From the NCBI GenBank assembly GCA_021414115.1, contig JAIOPD010000022.1, positions 1-34,496 on the forward strand: a DNA stretch of 34,496 nt. The letters are read 5' to 3'. The DNA comes from Planctomycetia bacterium. Its GTDB lineage: Bacteria; Planctomycetota; Planctomycetia; Pirellulales; UBA1268. Of this stretch, positions 363 to 9,548 are shown piece by piece; the first letter of the stretch is position 1; each line of letters begins with the position of its first letter. Position numbers and translations under genes: made by a program. The notes beneath the pieces are model-generated. The model saw only the letters and a program-made list of their open reading frames with translations, was not told the origin of the DNA and did not search any database.

Positions 363-437
363 GGTGGTTGTAGCTCAGTTGGTTAGAGCATCGGTTTGTG
401 GTACCGAGGGTCGCGGGTTCGAGTCCCGTCAGCCACC
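363..437 (+). tRNA. tRNA-His (anticodon GTG)
   Basis: The cloverleaf can be folded by eye. The acceptor stem GTGGTTG (364-370) pairs with CAGCCAC (430-436) with one G-T wobble. The anticodon stem TCGGT/ACCGA closes the loop TTGTGGT, giving anticodon GTG for histidine. The T arm contains GGTTCGAGTCC. The extra G at 363 opposite C437 (discriminator C73) fits the G-1:C73 pair that marks bacterial tRNA-His for its synthetase. The CCA tail is not encoded. The gene sits 33 bp before the pspA-like start codon. Confidence 0.95.
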
Positions 438-470
438 CCTGTTTTCGATCCCTTTGCGGAGGCGCCGGTC

Positions 471-1220
471 ATGATCCTTGGCAAGCTCTGGAAGGCCCTT
501 GCGGCCCAGATGAACAAGGTCGCCAACTTTTTCTGGACGGCCGACCCGGTCGCCCAGCTGCAGTACGAATACGACAAGGCCGTCGACCAGATGAAAGAGG
601 GCCGTGAGGGGCTCGAGCAGTATCGCGCCCTCGTGGAGCGGGTCACGCGACAGGTCAACGGAGACCGGCAGCACGTGGCATCGCTCGAGGCGAAGATCAA
701 GGCCTATCTTCAGGCTGGTGAGCGGGAAACCGCCTCGAAGTTCGCGCTCGAGTTGCAAACGGCGAAGAAGCAGCTTGCCGAGAACGAGGGGCAGCTCAAG
801 CTTCACGAGACGGCCTACAACAACAATGTCACGAAAATCAAGCACGCCACGAAGAAGTTGTCGGATCTCAAGACCAAGATTCAAAAGTACGACGCCGACC
901 TCAAGCTCTCACGGGCGGAAGCCGAACTCGCCAAGCTCGCGCAGAGTTTCAACTTTGACGTCACCACCGACTTCGGCCAGATCGAGGATGTGATCCAGGA
1001 CAAGATCGGCCTCAACAGGGCGAAGGTCCGCGTGGCGGCCGACCTCTCGGGCGAAGGCCTCGAGAACATCAAGCAAGAAGCGGCCGTCGAGAAGGCCATG
1101 GCCGACAATGCGCTCCGCGAGTTCGAGATTGAAATGGGCATGGTCACGCCGGAGACGGCCGGCGTGAGGGCCGACGACAAGGAACTCGGATCCGAGCGGA
1201 TCACGCAGAAGTCCACCTGA
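471..1220 (+). CDS. pspA: PspA/IM30 (Vipp1)-family membrane-stress protein
   Basis: PspA/IM30 proteins are ESCRT-III-like helical proteins that polymerise on the cytoplasmic face of the inner membrane and stabilise it under stress. This one has 249 residues, close to the usual 220-250. It starts MILGKLWKALAAQMNK, an amphipathic helix of the type used for membrane binding, and continues as an almost unbroken Glu/Lys/Gln-rich coiled coil from about residue 30 to 215 with the family-typical DP.....Y.......L start (ADPVAQLQYEYDKAVDQM). The start ATG at 471 was chosen because GGAGG lies at 458-462, 8 nt upstream; an earlier in-frame ATG would lie inside the tRNA. It is first in a co-directional block with an AAA+ ATPase and ABC transporter genes. 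A pspF-type sigma54 activator is not seen. Family assignment is strong; the physiological role here is inferred. Confidence 0.9.
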   Translation: MILGKLWKALAAQMNKVANFFWTADPVAQLQYEYDKAVDQMKEGREGLEQYRALVERVTRQVNGDRQHVASLEAKIKAYLQAGERETASKFALELQTAKKQLAENEGQLKLHETAYNNNVTKIKHATKKLSDLKTKIQKYDADLKLSRAEAELAKLAQSFNFDVTTDFGQIEDVIQDKIGLNRAKVRVAADLSGEGLENIKQEAAVEKAMADNALREFEIEMGMVTPETAGVRADDKELGSERITQKST

Positions 1221-1260
1221 GCGACCGGCGCGACGCGTTGAGCCACCTCAGGAGACGATC

Positions 1261-3189
1261 GTGAGCACTCCCGCAGCATCCAGAGACACGCCGCGGCCGC
1301 CGGCCGTGCAGCCCGTGGTGGCTGGCCTCGGGACCGGACTGCCGACGGGAGGATCCGTCGCCCTGGCGGAATGGTGCCCGTCGTGGGCGGAGCGGCTCGG
1401 GGACGCCTATCTCTCGGGGACGAGCTGCGTGTTTCTCATGCACGGCAACGTCCGCGACCTGGTGCCGATCGCGGCGCCTGCCGTAAACGCGTCGGCCGAC
1501 GCAAATGCCTGGGGTACGGTGCCCGACTTCCTCGCCCGGGAGATGTTCGGCAGCTGGGACATCGTGCTCGCCTACGACGTCGGCAAGGGTCTGCGGCCGT
1601 TGGCTGGTCCCGATCCATCGCGACTGAGAACCATGGCGCAGTGGCTCACGGAGCGGCTCGGCAACGCGGCCACCTGGCCCCGCGATCCCGATCAGGCCAT
1701 CGCCGCGATCGACGCGATCCTGGAGCGCAATCTGATCGATCCGCCCGAGCAGCGAAAACGGATCGCCGTGGTTCTCGACTACGCACAGTATCTCGTGCCG
1801 GCAGGCGAAGCCGGAGCCCGCTCGGGGGCCGCACGGCTGGTGCGAATCCTTGGCTGGGCGACCAATCCGCTGCTCCGTCGTGTCAATGTCGCGATCGTGC
1901 TGCTCACCGACTCGCTCGCCGAGATGCATCCACGGGTGGTCGCCAATCCGGCCGTCACCGCCATCGAGGTGCCAATGCCCGAGGCCGATGAGCGGGAGCG
2001 ATTCGTGCTGGCGACCGCCGCAGCGGCGGGCATGCCTGCGGAGCACCTTGACGCCGTTCGTCGGGTCGCCGCGCTCTCCGGCGGCCTCACGCTCGAAAGC
2101 CTCCGGGCCGTGGTCACGCTCTCGGCTCGCGAACGGACGGCACCCGACGGGCCGGAGTTCACGGCCCGCAAGAAGGATCTCATCGAACGCTCGTGCCAGG
2201 GACTGATCGAGTTCATCCAGCCGCGGCTCACGCTCGACGCCGTGGCGGGGCATGCCGACGCCAAGAATCGCCTCGAGTCCGATGCGAAGGCGATCAAGCG
2301 CGGGCAGCTCGAGAGCGCGCCGATGGGATATCTCATCTGCGGTCCGGTTGGCACCGGCAAAAGCTTCATCGCCGAGTGTTACGCCGGCAGTGTGGGGATT
2401 CCCTGCGTGGTGCTCAAAAACTTCCGCAGCAAGTACGTGGGCGAAACCGAGGGCAATCTCGAGCATGCCCTCGGTGTGCTTCGCAGCCTCGGGCCGGTGG
2501 TCGTGATCATCGACGAGGCCGACGCGGCGCTTGGCAACCGGCAGAGCGACGGTGACTCGGGCACCAGCGCCCGCGTGTTCTCGATGATCGCCCGGCAGAT
2601 GGGCGATACACGGTATCGCGGCAAGATCGTCTGGATGCTGCTCACCAGCCGTCCCGACCTGCTCCCGATCGATCTCAAGCGGCAGGGACGTGCGGAGGTG
2701 CACATCCCGCTCTTTTATCCGCACGACCAGGCGGAGATGGACGCGATGTTCCGTGCGGAGGTGCACATCCCGCTCTTTTATCCGCACGACCAGGCGGAGA
2801 TGGACGCGATGTTCGCGGCGATGGCGCGGAAATGCCACGTGAAGCTCGCTCCGGGCCTGCCCGGCCCGATCGACCTGTCGCTGGGCCTCTCGGGCGCCGA
2901 CGTGGAGAGCCTCGTGCTCGCCGCCCGCCGCCAGGGTCTCGATCGGGCGGCTGACGCCGGCCAGCCCGCGACCGACACGATCTCCGCGGACGATCTCGCA
3001 GCCGCACTCGACGACTTCATGCCGAGCGCCCAGGGCCTCGAGAAGGAGATGCAGGAGATCGCCGCCGTGCTCGAGTGCACCGAGAAGCGGTTCCTGCCCG
3101 AACGCTGGAGGGAAAAAGTGGGTCAGCCGGGCGGCCGTTCCCACCTGCAGGAGAGGCTCGCGGCGATCCGCGAGGTGATTGGTTCTTGA
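1261..3189 (+). CDS. Two-domain AAA+ ATPase (Ycf46-like layout) with internal 21-residue tandem duplication
   Basis: This is a 642-residue AAA+ ATPase, expected to be cytoplasmic and to remodel a protein partner using ATP. The N-terminal half (about 20-300) looks like a degenerate AAA domain: it has the strand VVLDYAQYL and a sensor-like VAIVLLTDS segment but no Walker A motif. The C-terminal half is active-looking: Walker A GPVGTGKS at 361-368, Walker B VVVIIDEAD with D418/E419, and sensor 1 region WMLLTSRPD followed by KRQGR. Residues 477-497 and 498-518 are identical copies of a 21-residue unit starting RAEVHIPLF. The degenerate-plus-active layout resembles the Ycf46 family, which is inference from layout, not a search. 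The GTG start is preceded by AGGAGA at 1250-1255, and pspA ends 40 bp upstream. The ATPase probably acts on, or with, the PspA-like protein. Confidence 0.85.
   Translation: MSTPAASRDTPRPPAVQPVVAGLGTGLPTGGSVALAEWCPSWAERLGDAYLSGTSCVFLMHGNVRDLVPIAAPAVNASADANAWGTVPDFLAREMFGSWDIVLAYDVGKGLRPLAGPDPSRLRTMAQWLTERLGNAATWPRDPDQAIAAIDAILERNLIDPPEQRKRIAVVLDYAQYLVPAGEAGARSGAARLVRILGWATNPLLRRVNVAIVLLTDSLAEMHPRVVANPAVTAIEVPMPEADERERFVLATAAAAGMPAEHLDAVRRVAALSGGLTLESLRAVVTLSARERTAPDGPEFTARKKDLIERSCQGLIEFIQPRLTLDAVAGHADAKNRLESDAKAIKRGQLESAPMGYLICGPVGTGKSFIAECYAGSVGIPCVVLKNFRSKYVGETEGNLEHALGVLRSLGPVVVIIDEADAALGNRQSDGDSGTSARVFSMIARQMGDTRYRGKIVWMLLTSRPDLLPIDLKRQGRAEVHIPLFYPHDQAEMDAMFRAEVHIPLFYPHDQAEMDAMFAAMARKCHVKLAPGLPGPIDLSLGLSGADVESLVLAARRQGLDRAADAGQPATDTISADDLAAALDDFMPSAQGLEKEMQEIAAVLECTEKRFLPERWREKVGQPGGRSHLQERLAAIREVIGS
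2689..2814 (+). repeat. Perfect 63-bp in-frame tandem duplication inside the AAA+ gene
   Basis: Copy 1 is 2689-2751 and copy 2 is 2752-2814. They are identical base for base and keep the reading frame, adding 21 residues. The unit starts CGTGCGGAGGTGCACATCCC and ends GACGCGATGTTC. It begins at the Arg that follows sensor 1 (the position of the arginine-finger GR motif) and ends where the C-terminal lid domain should begin. Absence of any third-position change means the duplication is very recent or is an assembly artefact. Confidence 0.97.
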
Positions 3190-3221
3190 TTCACGCACGC
3201 AACCCCCAGGAGATCACAACG

Positions 3222-3515
3222 ATGGCAGGCAAGACCCCTTGGTTCGACGATTCCAGCGACACGCCGCTGATCGCGGAATATGCTCGCAAGCTCGATTCCT
3301 TCCTCGGCGCCATCTCCGATCAGGTCGTTGAAACGCATGAACTCGAGGAGCAGGAGAAGCGATTGGTGACGCTCATGAAGGAGGTCGAACCGCTGCTTTC
3401 GCCGGAGGCCCACGAGAAGGTGACTCGGCTGCTCTGCGAAGTCACGGCCTACGACCTCATGCACGCCCTGCACATGGCCGGTCGGGCACGCCCGAAGACG
3501 CAGTTCCGCGGTTAG
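3222..3515 (+). CDS. Small conserved-looking acidic protein of the PspA/AAA/ABC block, unknown function
   Basis: I do not recognise this 97-residue protein. It starts MAGKTPWFDDSSDTPLIAEY and is mainly predicted helix, rich in Glu, Leu and Lys in its middle (HELEEQEKRLVTLMKEVEPLL), with no membrane span or signal peptide. The ATG at 3222 was chosen because CAGGAG lies at 3207-3212; the frame is open further upstream, but that would overlap the AAA+ gene. It is 32 bp after the AAA+ stop and about 60 bp before the next gene, so it is probably co-transcribed with both. It may be an adaptor for the AAA+ ATPase or the PspA-like protein; this is inference from position only. Confidence 0.8.
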   Translation: MAGKTPWFDDSSDTPLIAEYARKLDSFLGAISDQVVETHELEEQEKRLVTLMKEVEPLLSPEAHEKVTRLLCEVTAYDLMHALHMAGRARPKTQFRG

Positions 3516-3577
3516 TCTGCCCCACGTCGTCGGTGGCACGCCGAGACGAGAGTCCCTTTCACATCCCGAGGCAAAGC

Positions 3578-5323
3578 ATGACCAGCCAACCCAAGGCTCC
3601 CTTTTGGCTCGCCGTCTGGGCCGTCATCTTCGGGCTCGTGGGCCTCGCCGCGTGGCGGGCAGGCATGCTCGAGCAGTTTGGCCTCGGCCGGCCCGGCGCG
3701 GCTGGACAGCGGCCTGTCGCAGGTGGCGGCGCGGATGTCGGGGGCGGTGCCGAGACGATGAGCGAGGCTCCGGACGTCGCGGTGCCTACGACCGTCAAGG
3801 AATACACGTTCAAGCCGGCCGAGAAGCTGCCGCCCGTGAAGGGCGTGAGTGGCTACAAGCCGCTCGAGGACGACACCGTCCGCTTCGCCCTCAACGTCTG
3901 GGCGGGCTGGGCGCCGATCATCCGGGCCAACGGCGGTTTCAAGCCGGGGAAGGTCTGGCAGACGCCGGCCGGAAAGCCGTTCAAGGTGGAGCTCGTCCTC
4001 ATCGACGACCCCGTGCAGATGCGCGACGCCTATGCCGCCGGCAACGTCCACATCGGCTGGGCGACCCTCGACATGCTGCCGCTCTTCGTCGACAGCTTCG
4101 CGAAGGATTCGCGAATCATGCCCCGCGTCTACCAGCAGGTCGACTTCTCCAACGGCGGCGACGGGATCGTCGTTCGTGAGTCGATCAAGACGGTCGCGGA
4201 TCTGGCGGGCAAAAAGCTTGTGATGGCGCAGAACTCCCCCAGCCAGTTCTTCGCGCTTAACATGATCGTCGCCGGCGGCCTGCAGCCCGCCGACGTGGAG
4301 ATGGTCTATGTCAACACCGCCTTCGAGGCGGCTGCCGCGTTCAGCCGTGACAAGAGCATCGCCGGCTGCGTGTCGTGGGCGCCCGACATCTACAACCTGG
4401 CCGACGCCAAGGGCAATCGGATGCTCGTCACGACCCAGACGGCCAACCGTCTGATCGCCGACCTCTGGTTCGCCCGGGCCGACTTCGCGAAGGATCACCC
4501 CGACAAGATCGAGGCGATCGTTCGGGGAATCTTCGACGCGATGGCGGAGCTCAAGAGCGAGACGGCACGGAAGGAGGTGGCGGAGTCGATGGCCGACGGC
4601 TACACGATCCCCGCCGCCGACGCCCTGTCGATGCTCGGCGACGCCCACAGCACCAACTGGGCCGAGAACTACCAGTTCTTTCTCAACCGGAACAACCCGG
4701 CCAACTTCGAGCGGATCTGGAAGCAGGCCTACATGCTGTACCGTCGTATCGGGGCGATTGCCAACAATCCGGTGCCCTTCGATCAGGTGATGGATTTCTC
4801 GGTGATCCAGAAGCTCGGCCGGGAGCCAAAGTACTCCGAGACCAAGGACGAATACACGGCCAGCCTCTCGCCGAAGACGGTGCAGCAGATCCGCGCGGAG
4901 AACGAGGAGATCCTCACCAACACGATCGTGATCCACTTCTTTCCCAACAGCGCAGAGCTGCGGAAGAAGGTGATCCGACGGATCGACGGCAAGGATGTCG
5001 AGGAGCCGTATGACGCCCGGGTGGACCTCGTGCTCGACGAGGCGGGAGCGCTGGCCAAGCAGTTTGGCAACGCGCGGATCGTCGTCGAGGGGCACACCGA
5101 CGGTTCCATGCGGGGCTCCGTCCCCGCCGCCATGGTGCGGGAACTGTCGCTCGAGCGGGCCCGTTCGGTGAAGGACGCGCTCGTGGAGAAGTTCAAGTTC
5201 GACGACGGCCGCTTCGCCGTCGACGGGCTGGGCTGGGACCGGCCGGCCGACGATGACCATCCCGACAACCACGCCCTCAACCGCCGCGTGGAAATCAAGG
5301 TGTACGCGGCGGAAAAGGAATGA
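3578..5323 (+). CDS. Membrane-anchored ABC substrate-binding protein fused to OmpA peptidoglycan-binding domain
   Basis: 581 residues. A hydrophobic segment at residues 9-27 (FWLAVWAVIFGLVGLAAW) acts as a signal anchor. A low-complexity Gly/Ala linker follows, then a type 2 periplasmic binding protein domain of the nitrate/sulfonate/taurine group (about 55-400, with FALNVWAGWAPIIRANGG and the segment TVADLAGKKLVMAQN). The C-terminus (about 445-581) is an OmpA-like domain with VVEGHTDGS, LSLERARSVKDAL and NRRVEIKV, which in this family binds diaminopimelate in peptidoglycan. I chose ATG 3578 because GAGG at 3568-3571 lies 6 nt upstream; an ATG at 3533 would add 15 residues. The permease gene overlaps its stop by 4 bp (ATGA). 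The protein should present ligand to the ABC permease while tethered to the cell wall. Ligand unknown. Confidence 0.88.
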   Translation: MTSQPKAPFWLAVWAVIFGLVGLAAWRAGMLEQFGLGRPGAAGQRPVAGGGADVGGGAETMSEAPDVAVPTTVKEYTFKPAEKLPPVKGVSGYKPLEDDTVRFALNVWAGWAPIIRANGGFKPGKVWQTPAGKPFKVELVLIDDPVQMRDAYAAGNVHIGWATLDMLPLFVDSFAKDSRIMPRVYQQVDFSNGGDGIVVRESIKTVADLAGKKLVMAQNSPSQFFALNMIVAGGLQPADVEMVYVNTAFEAAAAFSRDKSIAGCVSWAPDIYNLADAKGNRMLVTTQTANRLIADLWFARADFAKDHPDKIEAIVRGIFDAMAELKSETARKEVAESMADGYTIPAADALSMLGDAHSTNWAENYQFFLNRNNPANFERIWKQAYMLYRRIGAIANNPVPFDQVMDFSVIQKLGREPKYSETKDEYTASLSPKTVQQIRAENEEILTNTIVIHFFPNSAELRKKVIRRIDGKDVEEPYDARVDLVLDEAGALAKQFGNARIVVEGHTDGSMRGSVPAAMVRELSLERARSVKDALVEKFKFDDGRFAVDGLGWDRPADDDHPDNHALNRRVEIKVYAAEKE

Positions 5324-6243
5324 CCACGTCAGCCGAACCGTCGGCGTCGCACAGCCCGCCCCCCTTGGTCGCGGCCCAGCCGCTGCGGGGCGAGGCGACC
5401 ACGACGACGGTGTTGTTCTGGGGTGTGACCTGCGTCGCCTGCGTGTTGGCGCTGTGGTTCGTGGCGACCGCCGGCGAGGCGGAGAGCCGGATCATCAGTC
5501 CGGCCACGCTGCCCAGCCCCGGTGAGGTTCTCAACGCGGTGCCGGGCGTGTTCGGCGAGCGGCGACTCGTGGCCAACACGCTCGTAACCCTGCGGAGGGT
5601 CTGTCTGGGGTTCGGATTGTCTGCGCTGGTAGGCGTGCCGCTCGGGGTACTCGCCGCGTGCTTTCCGGCGGTGCGGGCGTTCGTGGCCCCGCTGACGATC
5701 TTTGGCCGCAACATCCCGGTGGCGGCGCTCATCCCGCTGACGTTCTTCTTTTTTGGGATTGGCGAGTTCCAGAAGATGATGTTTTTGTTCATCGCCAGCG
5801 CGGCCTTCGTGGTGAGCGACACGACGGCCGCCGTGCTCGAGGTACCGCAGCGCTACGTCGACACCGCGCTGACGCTCGGCGCTTCACGGCTGCAGATCAT
5901 TCTCAAGGTGCTCGTGCCCTTGGCGGCACCGGCGATCTTCAACTCGCTGCGGCTGCTGTTCGGCATCGCCTTCGGCTACGTGATGCTCGCGGAGGTCGTC
6001 AAACTCGGCGGCGACACGGGGGGGCTCGGCGACCTGATCAACGTGTCGCAGCGGCGGGGAGAGCGGGAGCCGATCCTGATCGTGCTGGTGGTGATCCCGC
6101 TGGTGGCCTACGCGATCGATCGGCTGCTGTGGTGGCTGCAGTGCGATCTCTTCCCGCACCGTTACGGCGGCCGGGGGCTCCTGCCGCGGTTCGTTCGCCG
6201 CCTGCTGCACGGGGCGGCGGGGCCAGCGGAGGCTCTGGCATGA
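5320..6243 (+). CDS. ABC transporter permease, nitrate/sulfonate/taurine (SsuC/TauC) type
   Basis: This 307-residue inner-membrane permease belongs to the binding-protein-dependent importer class (BPD_transp_1). About six membrane spans can be seen, starting with TTTVLFWGVTCVACVLALWF near residue 28. The cytoplasmic EAA loop that contacts the ATPase is recognisable in YVDTALTLGASRLQIILKVL followed by PLAAPAIFNSL. The start ATG overlaps the stop of the substrate-binding gene (ATGA at 5320-5323), and its own stop overlaps the next start in the same way, which indicates translational coupling of the three transporter genes. Substrate cannot be read from the sequence: this family spans nitrate, taurine, aliphatic sulfonates, thiamine precursors and others. 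Confidence 0.9.
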   Translation: MTTSAEPSASHSPPPLVAAQPLRGEATTTTVLFWGVTCVACVLALWFVATAGEAESRIISPATLPSPGEVLNAVPGVFGERRLVANTLVTLRRVCLGFGLSALVGVPLGVLAACFPAVRAFVAPLTIFGRNIPVAALIPLTFFFFGIGEFQKMMFLFIASAAFVVSDTTAAVLEVPQRYVDTALTLGASRLQIILKVLVPLAAPAIFNSLRLLFGIAFGYVMLAEVVKLGGDTGGLGDLINVSQRRGEREPILIVLVVIPLVAYAIDRLLWWLQCDLFPHRYGGRGLLPRFVRRLLHGAAGPAEALA

Positions 6244-7136
6244 GCGACGAGGTGCCACCGGCGCGTGTGAGTTCGCCCAGCCTGACGTCCGACCGGCCGG
6301 CGGCGGTCGATTTTCAGGGCGTGACGAAGATCTACGGACAGGGCACGCCGCGGGAGTACGTGGCGATTTCCGACGTGACCTTCACGATCCCTGACGTGGT
6401 GGACCACGGCGAGATCTCGTCGTTTCTCGGACCCAGCGGCTGCGGCAAGAGCACGGTGCTCAGGCTCGTGGCCGGCCTCGAGCCGCAGCATCCGCCGACG
6501 ATTGGCACGGTGACTGTGCTTGGCCGTCCGGTCGTCGGGCCTGGCGCCGACAGGGGCATGGTGTTTCAGGACTACACGAGCTTCGACAACCGCACGGTGC
6601 TCGACAACGTGATCTTCGGACTGGAATGCAGGGGTGTGCCGCGGCGGGAGCGGGAGTCCGAAGGACTCGACTGGATCGCGAAAGTGGGGCTCGATCCCCG
6701 ACGAGACTCGGGCAAATATCCGCATGAACTCTCGGGCGGGATGCGGCAGCGGGTGGCGATCGCCCGCACGCTCATCCTGCGACCGCGGGTGATCCTCATG
6801 GACGAGCCCTTTGGAGCGCTCGATCCGGCGACGCGGCTCGACATGCAGGATCTGCTGGTCAGGCTGTGGCGGGAGGTCCAGGCCACGGTGCTGTTCGTGA
6901 CGCACTCCGTCGAAGAGGCGGTGTATCTTGGTGATCGGGTGTTTGTGATGGCTACGACTCCGGGCCGGATCGTCGATGAGATCCGGCTGCCGGCCGCTTC
7001 GGCCCTCGCTCGGGAGACGCAGTCGGCGCCGTGGTTCCACGAGCAGGTCAACGCATTGCATGCCCGGATCGAGCAGGTGGAGGCCGCCGCGAAGCGGCCC
7101 GAAAATGGTGTCAGCCACCGCATTCAGGCAGGATAG
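6240..7136 (+). CDS. ABC transporter ATP-binding protein, nitrate/sulfonate/taurine (SsuB/TauB) type
   Basis: This 298-residue cytoplasmic ATPase powers the importer. All nucleotide-binding motifs are present: Walker A GPSGCGKS (64-71), Q-loop Gln110 in MVFQDYTS, signature LSGGMRQR (164-171), Walker B VILMDEP (184-190), D-loop GALD and the H-loop histidine in VTHSVEEAVYLGD. There is a short insertion between the first strands (IPDVVDHGEISSFLGP) compared with SsuB. The ATG at 6240 overlaps the permease stop by 4 bp. A C-terminal tail of roughly 60 residues beyond the core carries a helical region. It is the motor of the same transporter as the two preceding genes. Confidence 0.92.
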   Translation: MSDEVPPARVSSPSLTSDRPAAVDFQGVTKIYGQGTPREYVAISDVTFTIPDVVDHGEISSFLGPSGCGKSTVLRLVAGLEPQHPPTIGTVTVLGRPVVGPGADRGMVFQDYTSFDNRTVLDNVIFGLECRGVPRRERESEGLDWIAKVGLDPRRDSGKYPHELSGGMRQRVAIARTLILRPRVILMDEPFGALDPATRLDMQDLLVRLWREVQATVLFVTHSVEEAVYLGDRVFVMATTPGRIVDEIRLPAASALARETQSAPWFHEQVNALHARIEQVEAAAKRPENGVSHRIQAG

Positions 7137-7183
7137 GCAGCCCACGCCACACATTCCCAGGTTCGGTGTCAGGCACCATTCAC

Positions 7184-8026
7184 ATGTTCAGCCGATTTGG
7201 CGCATACCTGAAGACCGCGTTCCTGACGCGTTGGAACCTGCTGCTCTTCGGCGGCGGGGTGGCTGCGGCGTGCATCAGTGGGTTTCCCGGCATTCTGCTG
7301 CCACTGGTGGTCGCTGGCGAGGTCTATTACCTGGCGAGCATGCTGGCCAACGATCGCTTCCGCAGCGCCGTCGAGGCGCAGGATGCGAAGGCCAAGAGGG
7401 CCCTGGAGGCATCCGGGGCTCGCGAGGCCTATGAGCGAATCCGGAAGAATCTGCCCCCCGCCCTCCTCAAGCGGTTCGACCAACTCCGCGATCATTGCCT
7501 CAAACTCGTCGAGCTCGGCGGCAGCATGCGGGGGCCTGACGGCGGCGGACCCGACAAGAACGCCCTGGAGTCGCTCGACCGTCTGCTCTGGGGCTATCTG
7601 CGGATGATCTGGGGCGCATCGACGCTGTCCGACTTCCTTAACCATACCGACGACGGCGAGATCCGGGCACGAATCGCCGATCTCGAGCGTCGGCTGGCGA
7701 AACTGCCTCAGAACGACCCCGGCTCGGCGCAGATGCGGGCGGCGCTCGAAGACCACCTGCAGACGAGCCGCGAGCGGCTGGAGAACATCGAAGAGGCCCG
7801 CCGGAAGCTCGCTTTGGTCGCCGCCGAAGTCGAGCGACTGGAGGCCAAGATTGCCGCGCTCGCCGAAAGTTCTGTCGCGAAGCGGGATGTCAGCGACATC
7901 GCCCAGCGGGTCGACGAGGTGGCGGCGGGCATGCGGAAAACCGACGAAACGATGCGGCAGCTCCAGCTCCCTCCGGAGCTCGAAGACCTCGATGAACCCC
8001 CGCCGATGCTCCGCGAGGAGGCGTGA
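7184..8026 (+). CDS. Membrane-anchored coiled-coil protein closing the PspA/ABC block, unknown function
   Basis: I do not recognise a named family. The 280-residue protein starts MFSRFGAYLKTAFLTRWNLL and has a hydrophobic stretch at about residues 17-48 that could form two close membrane spans separated by a Gly/Pro turn (ISGFPGILLPLVVAGEVYYL). The rest is soluble and largely helical, with strong coiled-coil character at about 165-260 (Glu/Arg/Leu heptads such as RLENIEEARRKLALVAAEVERLEAKIAALAE, shown only in part by its two ends). The acidic C-terminus ends DEPPPMLREEA. The ATG at 7184 is favoured because the frame upstream lies over the ABC ATPase end. It follows the ATPase by 47 bp. By position and topology it could dock the PspA-like protein to the membrane, a role that PspB/PspC fill elsewhere; this is inference. 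Confidence 0.8.
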   Translation: MFSRFGAYLKTAFLTRWNLLLFGGGVAAACISGFPGILLPLVVAGEVYYLASMLANDRFRSAVEAQDAKAKRALEASGAREAYERIRKNLPPALLKRFDQLRDHCLKLVELGGSMRGPDGGGPDKNALESLDRLLWGYLRMIWGASTLSDFLNHTDDGEIRARIADLERRLAKLPQNDPGSAQMRAALEDHLQTSRERLENIEEARRKLALVAAEVERLEAKIAALAESSVAKRDVSDIAQRVDEVAAGMRKTDETMRQLQLPPELEDLDEPPPMLREEA

Positions 8027-8405: not shown

Positions 8406-9548
8406 TCAGTCCAGCCAGTCGGCCTCGGCGAGCCGCTCGGGGGTGTACGTGTCGGTGACGTAGCTGATGTCCTTCGAGATCAGCGACTCGACCTCCAGCT
8501 TGAAGCCGTTGGCGAGCATCGTCTCGATCTCCTTCTGCCACGCTTTCTTGCCGGCGAACCACGGATAGGCGGCAATCTGCTTCGCCCGCTTGATGTCGGT
8601 GTCGTTGAGCTGGATCTGCACGCTCGGGGAGAGCTTGCAGCGGCCGTAGTCGCGGGACCGGATGCCGAGGAACTTGGCCTCGGGAATCGCCATCCGCTTC
8701 GACTCGTAGGCGAGGTTGATCGAGCCCTGCTTGAGGACGGAGTAGATGTAGTAGCCCCAGGGGTCGTTGTCGAGCAGGCAGTAGACGGGCAGCTTCAGTT
8801 CGTTGTGGAGCCGGGAAAGCATCCGCCGTACGCCCCGCGGCGGCTGGCCGCCGCCATGGGTGAGCAGGCAGTTGTGCTTTCGCCAGAACTTGTCCTCGTT
8901 GAACCGCCGCCAGACCGTGTCTTTCTCGACGTGGAGGATGAACTTGGCGTCACAGGTCTTGAACTTCACCACGTCGGCCTCGACGATCGACGGGATCGAA
9001 TAGCCGCCGGAGCCCATCCGCGAGCAGTCGATCTCGTCACCGGAGTCGATGAGTGTGATCGGGCCGACCATTCCACCGCGGTTGCTGGCGTAGACGTGGA
9101 GTTCTTCGCGAAGGCTCTCGAGCGTGACCTCGAGATCCTCGATGATTGGGTCGCACTCCTCCTGCGTGGCGAAGGTCTCCTCGCGGGTGCCGTCGATGGT
9201 GTGCTTGAGGAGGTAGTAAAGACCTCGGATGCTCGTGGTCTTCTGCTGATCGAGCAACTGCTTGCAGCCGGTGGCCACGAGCAGGGTCTGCATGTAGCTC
9301 TTGGCCTGCGAGAGATTGAAGAGCTGGCGGCGGTTGGTCTGGCCGCCCATCTCGATGATTTTTTGTGACTTGTTGAAGCGGACGTTCGAGAGGCTTCGGG
9401 TGGGGATGTCGAGGTAGGGATCGCGACGCTTCTCGGCGGCGGCCGCAACCTCGTCGGCGAGGCCGACGATCAGCTTGAGCGTCTTGAGATCGACCGCGGG
9501 CAACTTGCCGACAGCGGCCTTCGCAGGGTGTTTCGACTTCGTGGCCAT
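8406..9548 (-). CDS. top6A: DNA topoisomerase VI subunit A (Spo11 family)
   Basis: 380 residues, the usual size of archaeal Top6A. This subunit makes the transient double-strand break in type IIB topoisomerases. The active-site tyrosine is Tyr112 in TSIRGLYYLLKH (the winged-helix CAP domain). The TOPRIM metal site is present: Glu208 in FILHVEKDT and the DxD pair Asp260/Asp262 in YCLLDNDPWGYYIYS. The family-typical GGQPPRGVRRMLSRL segment lies between them. I chose the ATG at 9548 (MATKSKHPAK), because the extra 19 codons upstream look unlike protein and cover the promoter area. Subunit B, which carries the GHKL ATPase, is not adjacent in either direction, although bacterial and archaeal copies are commonly paired. 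No other topoisomerase gene is in the window. Confidence 0.93.
   Translation of the reverse strand: MATKSKHPAKAAVGKLPAVDLKTLKLIVGLADEVAAAAEKRRDPYLDIPTRSLSNVRFNKSQKIIEMGGQTNRRQLFNLSQAKSYMQTLLVATGCKQLLDQQKTTSIRGLYYLLKHTIDGTREETFATQEECDPIIEDLEVTLESLREELHVYASNRGGMVGPITLIDSGDEIDCSRMGSGGYSIPSIVEADVVKFKTCDAKFILHVEKDTVWRRFNEDKFWRKHNCLLTHGGGQPPRGVRRMLSRLHNELKLPVYCLLDNDPWGYYIYSVLKQGSINLAYESKRMAIPEAKFLGIRSRDYGRCKLSPSVQIQLNDTDIKRAKQIAAYPWFAGKKAWQKEIETMLANGFKLEVESLISKDISYVTDTYTPERLAEADWLD

Follow-up and report, generated by a model that had tools for sequence, protein, structure and literature searches.

A planctomycete operon joining a PspA-family protein and an AAA+ ATPase to a predicted peptidoglycan-binding solute receptor

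Why should the gene for a PspA-family protein, a member of the ESCRT-III superfamily (as stated in PMC8281802), lie beside genes for an AAA+ ATPase, a wall-binding solute receptor, and an ATP-binding cassette (ABC) importer? The question is raised by a 34,496-nucleotide stretch of planctomycete DNA (hereinafter the window), which is the entire contig C3 of a 4.35-Mb draft genome that is 95% complete. Positions 471–8026 hold seven co-directional genes on the + strand, coding for a PspA/IM30 protein, an AAA+ ATPase, a 97-aa protein, a receptor fused to an OmpA domain, a permease, an ABC ATPase, and a transmembrane (TM) coiled-coil protein (Table 1). The original prediction read these from the sequence as a single block with small or overlapping gaps; all seven are indeed present, with the Pfam families detailed below scoring above their cut-offs. 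The receptor and permease genes, and likewise the permease and ATPase genes, overlap by 4 bp (ATGA), while the remaining intergenic gaps span 17–62 bp, varying with the start codon chosen. We hold with high confidence that the seven genes form one system. As to its role, we favor, with moderate confidence and going by sequence, an ESCRT-III/Vps4-like PspA-AAA+ remodeller of the inner membrane that would be positioned or controlled by the peptidoglycan-clamped receptor, the ABC importer being a usual but dispensable part.

The architecture itself is not new. The original prediction had asked whether this exact set had already been described, and it has: the relevant section of Ravi et al. (2024; PMC11237479) reports PspA, TM-bearing Snf7 homologues, an AAA+ protein with an inactive N-terminal copy, an ABC ATPase and permease, and a PBPB-OmpA protein in one operon (e.g., OGG56892.1), with the transporter present only in some such systems. 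The window is a planctomycete instance of that kind, sharing with it PspA, the AAA+ ATPase, the ABC ATPase, the permease, a protein combining solute- and peptidoglycan-binding domains, and another TM-bearing partner. For two components the correspondence is less certain: the N-terminal copy of the published AAA+ protein is inactive, and the N-terminal half of the window's AAA+, which may have an AAA fold, has no P-loop; the published TM-bearing partner is a Snf7 homologue, and the window's coiled-coil protein, its possible counterpart, has TM segments and a helical part, no profile link to PspA, and no Snf7 match at E 0.01. Our literature searches turned up no further description of the gene combination, and the passages on ESCRT systems in PMC11188069 do not describe it. 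What may go beyond the published description here is the 97-aa protein and the receptor-bearing loci lacking ABC genes, neither of which we found in the relevant section of PMC11237479, and a VWA-domain partner, the terms "vWA" and "Willebrand" being absent from the main text of that paper.

Domains and folds of the encoded proteins

The first protein is recognized by PF04012 (PspA_IM30; 48.8 bits against a cut-off of 33.9), and the profile of its family matches the Vipp1/PspA structures 7o3w (1.7e-6) and 6zvr (1.9e-5). A PspA/IM30 protein is what the locus shares with the classical psp operon (pspFABC, with E. coli PspA); unlike the latter, it carries AAA+, receptor, and ABC genes. The predicted lack of PspB and PspC partners was borne out, since neither gave a match across the whole 95%-complete genome (PspF was not searched for); in a control set of 14 genomes PspC was detected in 7 and PspB in 1. 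The same bin contains a second pspA-AAA copy with 91% DNA identity (G000 contig C29:2-2837, L057), cut at the contig end, which could represent a variant strain within the bin or else a paralogue.

The AAA+ ATPase matches PF00004 (AAA) at 74.9 bits (cut-off 21.2) over residues 358–483, and this C-terminal domain bears a Walker A GPVGTGKS (361) and a Walker B VIIDEAD (415). A single GxxxxGK[ST] Walker A, located in the C-terminal half, was seen in all 19 of 19 AAA+ homologues, and the N-terminal ~310 residues are devoid of a P-loop. The juxtaposition recalls the ESCRT-III/Vps4 (Cdv) systems, in which an ESCRT-III superfamily protein is likewise found beside an AAA+ ATPase; in contrast to Vps4, however, the window's protein has no detected MIT domain, and the nearest chains to its AAA domain in the PDB are of the VCP/Cdc48 type. 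Directly after a conserved KRQG motif, the AAA+ gene contains a 63-bp duplication that neither the 18 other aligned homologues nor the C29 copy share; private to the window sequence among those compared, it may be a recent mutation or an assembly fault. Several matches to AAA+ homologues contain one in-frame stop (TGA in G317, G309, G152, G212, and G048; TAG in G066 and G043), which may stem from a match overrunning the stop or from true recoding or frameshifting.

A solute-binding and a peptidoglycan-binding domain are combined in one protein (P0004), with Pfam matches to both NMT1 (33.7 bits, cut-off 20.5) and OmpA (39.4 bits, cut-off 27.2). Judging from the upstream sequence, its start is probably ATG 3578 rather than GTG 3533; a single N-terminal hydrophobic segment occupies residues 22–40 of the longer reading. 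The solute-binding lobes are related to TauA/SsuA (6ssy, 2x26), and the OmpA domain aligns to Acinetobacter Omp38, with D523 and R542 retained in 26 of 26 aligned homologues; the matching residues of Omp38 bind diaminopimelate. The OmpA part finds MotB/PomB in the PDB among its matches, and these stator proteins share with the receptor an N-terminal TM segment and a C-terminal OmpA domain; the receptor differs in having a solute-binding domain in between, and no MotA-like partner is encoded among the seven genes.

The permease (BPD_transp_1, PF00528; 63.5 bits, cut-off 26.4) and the ATPase (ABC_tran, PF00005; 91.5 bits, cut-off 25) belong, along with the receptor lobes, to the class of the TauABC/SsuABC/NrtABCD-type importers, from which the window's set differs in scoring under the equivalog cut-offs and in the N-terminal TM segment and OmpA domain of the receptor. 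The best NCBIfam matches of the permease are SaoP, TauC, and NtrB, all under their cut-offs, and the equivalog scores are missed by far (TauB 202 against 357 bits, TauC 90 against 342, TauA 44.8 against 490).

The remaining two proteins are in keeping with the predicted small acidic protein and membrane-anchored coiled-coil protein. The 97-aa protein has a net charge of -5, and its AlphaFold2 (AF2) model is helical (pLDDT 88.6); it has no Pfam match at the cut-off and no significant fold in the PDB (Z at most 2.7, E at least 3). Pfam matches to VPS28 and TerB surfaced in 3 and 1 of 57 members, respectively, at E 0.003–0.009, and we took them to be due to chance. The coiled-coil protein (P0007, translated from one codon before the ATG) has hydrophobic segments at residues 20–38 and 38–56 ahead of its helical part and an all-helical AF2 model (pLDDT 80.5), and it matches no Pfam family at the cut-off.

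Table 1. Features of the locus and its flanks (window coordinates).
Feature	Position	Strand	Basis or remark
tRNA-His, flank outside the unit	364..439	+	31 bp upstream of pspA
PspA/IM30 (ESCRT-III superfamily) protein, 249 aa	471..1220	+	PF04012; Vipp1/PspA structure matches
AAA+ ATPase, 642 aa	1261..3189	+	PF00004 at residues 358-483
Perfect 63-bp tandem duplication (21 aa) within the AAA+ gene	2689..2814	+	alignment
Small acidic helical protein, 97 aa	3222..3515	+	locus conservation; AF2
Predicted inner-membrane-anchored NMT1/TauA-like solute-binding + OmpA protein	3578..5323 (start inferred; open frame from GTG 3533)	+	
ABC importer permease, TauC/SsuC/NtrB type	5320..6243	+	PF00528
ABC importer ATPase, TauB/NtrC-D type	6240..7136	+	PF00005
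TM-anchored helical/coiled-coil protein	7184..8026	+	2 hydrophobic segments; AF2
Topoisomerase VI subunit A gene, convergent flank	8406..9548	-	

As for the flanking genes, a tRNA-His occurs at variable distance in 13 of the 30 related loci scanned. The topoisomerase VI subunit A gene is a neighbor of the operon in 13 of the 20 family regions, being co-directional rather than convergent in L035, and subunit B matches lie on contig C114.

Conservation, gene-order variants, and a VWA-domain partner

The AAA+ gene served to trace near relatives in 40 genomes, the source included: of the 21 other members of the genus, 19 gave a match above 850 bits, as did 2 of the 3 genomes from the family's other genera, but matches above 400 bits occurred in just 2 of 15 same-order genomes. 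Of these 21 strongly matching family regions, 20 were fetched (all but a 5-kb contig of G006), along with five others; 17 of the 20 family regions reproduce the complete set in the same order as the window, and the remaining three are cut by contig ends. Across 294 genomes of the phylum, the receptor-OmpA protein was found in 30, source included (E<=1e-30), the AAA+ ATPase in 53 (E<=1e-50), and the coiled-coil protein in 35 (E<=1e-10), with only the best 4 AAA+ and the best 8 coiled-coil candidates per genome being scored. The three show strong co-occurrence: the receptor is accompanied by the AAA+ in 25 of 30 genomes (Fisher p=7e-17) and by the coiled coil in 23 of 30 (p=1e-19), and the coiled coil by the AAA+ in 33 of 35 (p=2e-27), all uncorrected for kinship. 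As 28 of the 53 AAA+-bearing genomes have no receptor at E<=1e-30, the AAA+ is more widely distributed than the operon.

Scanning an 84,980-species collection with the receptor alignment identified 392 relatives; the analysis retained the 80 best, a sample skewed to the window's closest relatives. The window's exact gene order recurs in 50 of these 80 loci, and 3 have another complete order (PspA-receptor-permease-ATPase-coiled coil-AAA+-small). When only the 53 uncut loci are considered (those with at least 3.3 kb before and at least 2.8 kb after the receptor), 49 have the full set of seven (exceptions: L140, L156, L171, L196), 52 have the coiled-coil protein, and 50 have the 97-aa protein beside the AAA+ gene. 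The record titles name mostly planctomycetes (Pirellulales, Phycisphaerae, others); these are labels of metagenome-assembled genomes, and they include Acidobacteria (L187, L192, L193, L195), a deltaproteobacterium (L185), and a myxobacterium (L198). In this and the following, several loci belong to a shared genome or duplicate one region (e.g., L249 and L187), and as the profiles for L053–L268 were rebuilt with members from L088–L119, the scores of the latter are not independent.

In the second phylum, the Acidobacteria-labelled one of L187's genome, the receptor was recovered in 22 of 247 genomes (E<=1e-50). These 22 loci contain the permease and ATPase in 20 cases, the coiled coil in 19, the AAA+ in 16, and PspA in 12 by a clear profile match and one by a weak one, to which Pfam adds L263 and L264; ten have PspA, receptor, permease, ATPase, coiled coil, and AAA+ all by profile, mostly not in the window's order. 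Besides the window's order A, we observed an order B, PspA-receptor-permease-ATPase-coiled coil-AAA+ (e.g., L096, L100, L110, L187, L250), and an order C, permease-ATPase-coiled coil-AAA+-PspA-receptor (L103, L248). Thus, the prediction of a conserved gene set held up: the set occurs far beyond close relatives, six of its seven genes recurring in a second phylum, and in several gene orders, and a restriction to this genome or its nearest relatives is rejected. This bears on whether the genes might be unrelated neighbors brought together by chance or by transfer as a block. The patchy distribution suggests loss or horizontal transfer, which would suit such an origin; but across two phyla the same partners recur in no fewer than three gene orders, which argues against passive linkage, and we accordingly reject a chance neighborhood and regard this explanation as most improbable. 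The same patchiness implies that the operon is not a core envelope function.

Variants with fewer components bear on the part played by the transporter. No ABC gene was found by profile within 13–14 kb in L116 (PspA-receptor-coiled coil-AAA+), L210 (PspA-AAA+-coiled coil-receptor), or L259 (coiled coil-AAA+-PspA-receptor), the PspA of L116 being unrecognized by Pfam at E 0.01; L212 and L223 (12 kb each) have only the receptor and the coiled coil, and L206 is cut by contig ends. Conversely, L207 and L208 have PspA, coiled coil, and AAA+, and no receptor was seen. In three of these genomes (L116, L210, L212) the highest-scoring permease match elsewhere, on another contig, reached 64–77 bits at 27–30% identity, and the L223 genome gave none, as against 153–312 bits in three positive controls; the L259 genome was not in that comparison. 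Since the genomes of L116, L207, L208, L210, L212, and L223 are 79–91% complete (there is no figure for L259), these absences are provisional. Receptor-OmpA proteins of greater divergence also occur with no clear AAA+ or coiled-coil gene next to them (L114, L115, L117–L119), including two in tandem in L117, each adjoined by a weak PspA-like match (13–16 bits).

These loci are at odds with the operon being primarily one for ABC import, in which PspA and the AAA+ would act as an assembly and quality-control chaperone keeping a wall-tethered importer functional. Such a role would accord with the chaperone-like functions of PspA partners and the link to solute transport proposed by Ravi et al. (in the relevant section of PMC11237479), and with the permease and ATPase being present in 53 of 53 uncut scan loci; those loci, however, were picked by similarity to the window's own receptor family, whereas L116, L210, and L259 retain PspA, AAA+, coiled coil, and receptor with no ABC gene, L207 and L208 retain the PspA-coiled coil-AAA+ trio with no receptor, and four genomes with transporter-less loci have elsewhere a permease that is only 27–30% identical (three) or none (one). 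We therefore consider a primarily import-directed operon unlikely. The statement in the original prediction that an import machine takes the place of the classical Psp partners likewise proved too strong, as PspA-AAA+ pairs are also found where no transporter is, and some loci that lack ABC genes retain the receptor-OmpA protein.

Of the 170 loci scanned (several from the same genomes), 17 have a VWA-domain protein; none was found in the 56 loci of the window's family. Its gene lies between those of the small protein and the receptor in L159, L160, L162–L164, L174, and L178, just before the receptor in L190, directly after it in L094, L095, L098, and L248, beside PspA in L110, L116, and L193, nearby in L259, and on the opposite strand in L117. 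Of eight such proteins scanned, seven exceed a Pfam VWA cut-off (not L110), all eight have a DxSxS motif, and in seven the N-terminus, read from the first Met, contains a hydrophobic segment, followed in four by a lipobox-like Cys. The VWA protein is probably periplasmic and a recurrent eighth member in some lineages.

A candidate membrane remodeller under a wall-bound receptor

From sequence and gene order we infer the following workings of the favored PspA-AAA+ remodeller. PspA would polymerize on the cytosolic face of the inner membrane, and the AAA+ ring, whose ATPase motifs are confined to the C-terminal domain, would disassemble or remodel the PspA polymer as Vps4 does with ESCRT-III; a dedicated AAA+ next to PspA suggests that the polymer has a motor for its disassembly. 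The TM coiled-coil protein may anchor the PspA/AAA+ pair to the membrane, and the 97-aa protein may be an adaptor of either the AAA+ or PspA. The receptor would span from the inner membrane to the wall by means of its TM helix, solute-binding lobes, and OmpA clamp on peptidoglycan, and so place or regulate the remodeller at wall-attached sites; it is the sole one of the seven proteins that could report on the wall or periplasm. Where the ABC pair is present, the receptor would feed it a small, probably anionic solute.

The same layout can be read differently, with the receptor and its OmpA clamp as a mechanical or solute sensor of MotB-like topology that triggers PspA recruitment upon a change in ligand or in the spacing between inner membrane and wall, transport being secondary. 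Consistent with this are the TM-linker-OmpA arrangement, the MotB/PomB structures among the matches of the OmpA part, and the retention of the receptor in some loci without ABC genes; but among five transporter-less receptors scanned (L259 not included), the solute-binding lobes are above the Pfam cut-off in L116 and L206 and under it in L210, L212, and L223. Such a sensor appears quite unlikely. A defence role is not supported, the PADLOC matches being of a generic kind (coiled-coil, AAA, or OmpA).

Several observations weigh against the PspA-AAA+ remodeller under receptor control. The coiled-coil protein could not be tied to PspA or Snf7 by profile, Pfam, PDB, or fold searches: its profile-profile comparison with PspA gave a probability of 1.2%, neither Snf7 nor PspA is among the Pfam matches of 30 members at E 0.01, and PspA/Vipp1 is not among the best 50 matches listed in either fold search. 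Its best fold matches in the PDB are designed bundles, a type IV secretion system (T4SS) stalk, and BAR domains at Z ~7–10, a range common for helical models, and the best Foldseek E is 0.17; the best PDB profile match, a coiled coil of a pneumococcal surface protein, has only the name "PspA" in common. No MIT domain is among the Pfam matches of the AAA+ up to E=1, at the profile level only. The 97-aa protein is present in just 1 of 22 second-phylum loci (L249), and the spread of the operon is patchy, with 30/294 and 22/247 genomes in the two phyla and 0/20 of the same-order and same-class genomes listed. A sigma-70 scan found no promoter-like site, a single transcript being assumed from the gaps alone; the assignment to the published operon kind was made from its description; and literature searches turned up no experiment on any operon member.

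More tentatively, we raise the possibility that the conserved heart of the system is a wall-to-membrane repair device, in which PspA, the AAA+, and the TM coiled coil would act under the peptidoglycan-clamped receptor, joined in some lineages by the probably periplasmic VWA (metal-ion adhesion site) protein, with the ABC importer as an accessory clearing or converting the sensed ligand. If true, this would amount to an ESCRT-like remodeller in bacteria that has an extracytoplasmic sensor of its own. How PspA polymers are disassembled in bacteria is an open question, and Ravi et al. state that it is not known by what means PspA homologues manage their assembly when no AAA ATPase is associated with them (PMC11237479, relevant section). 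With PspA, a dedicated AAA+, and a wall-bound receptor in one operon, disassembly becomes a question that can be tested in vitro, and the variants without a transporter or with a VWA protein indicate which parts of the operon matter first for testing.

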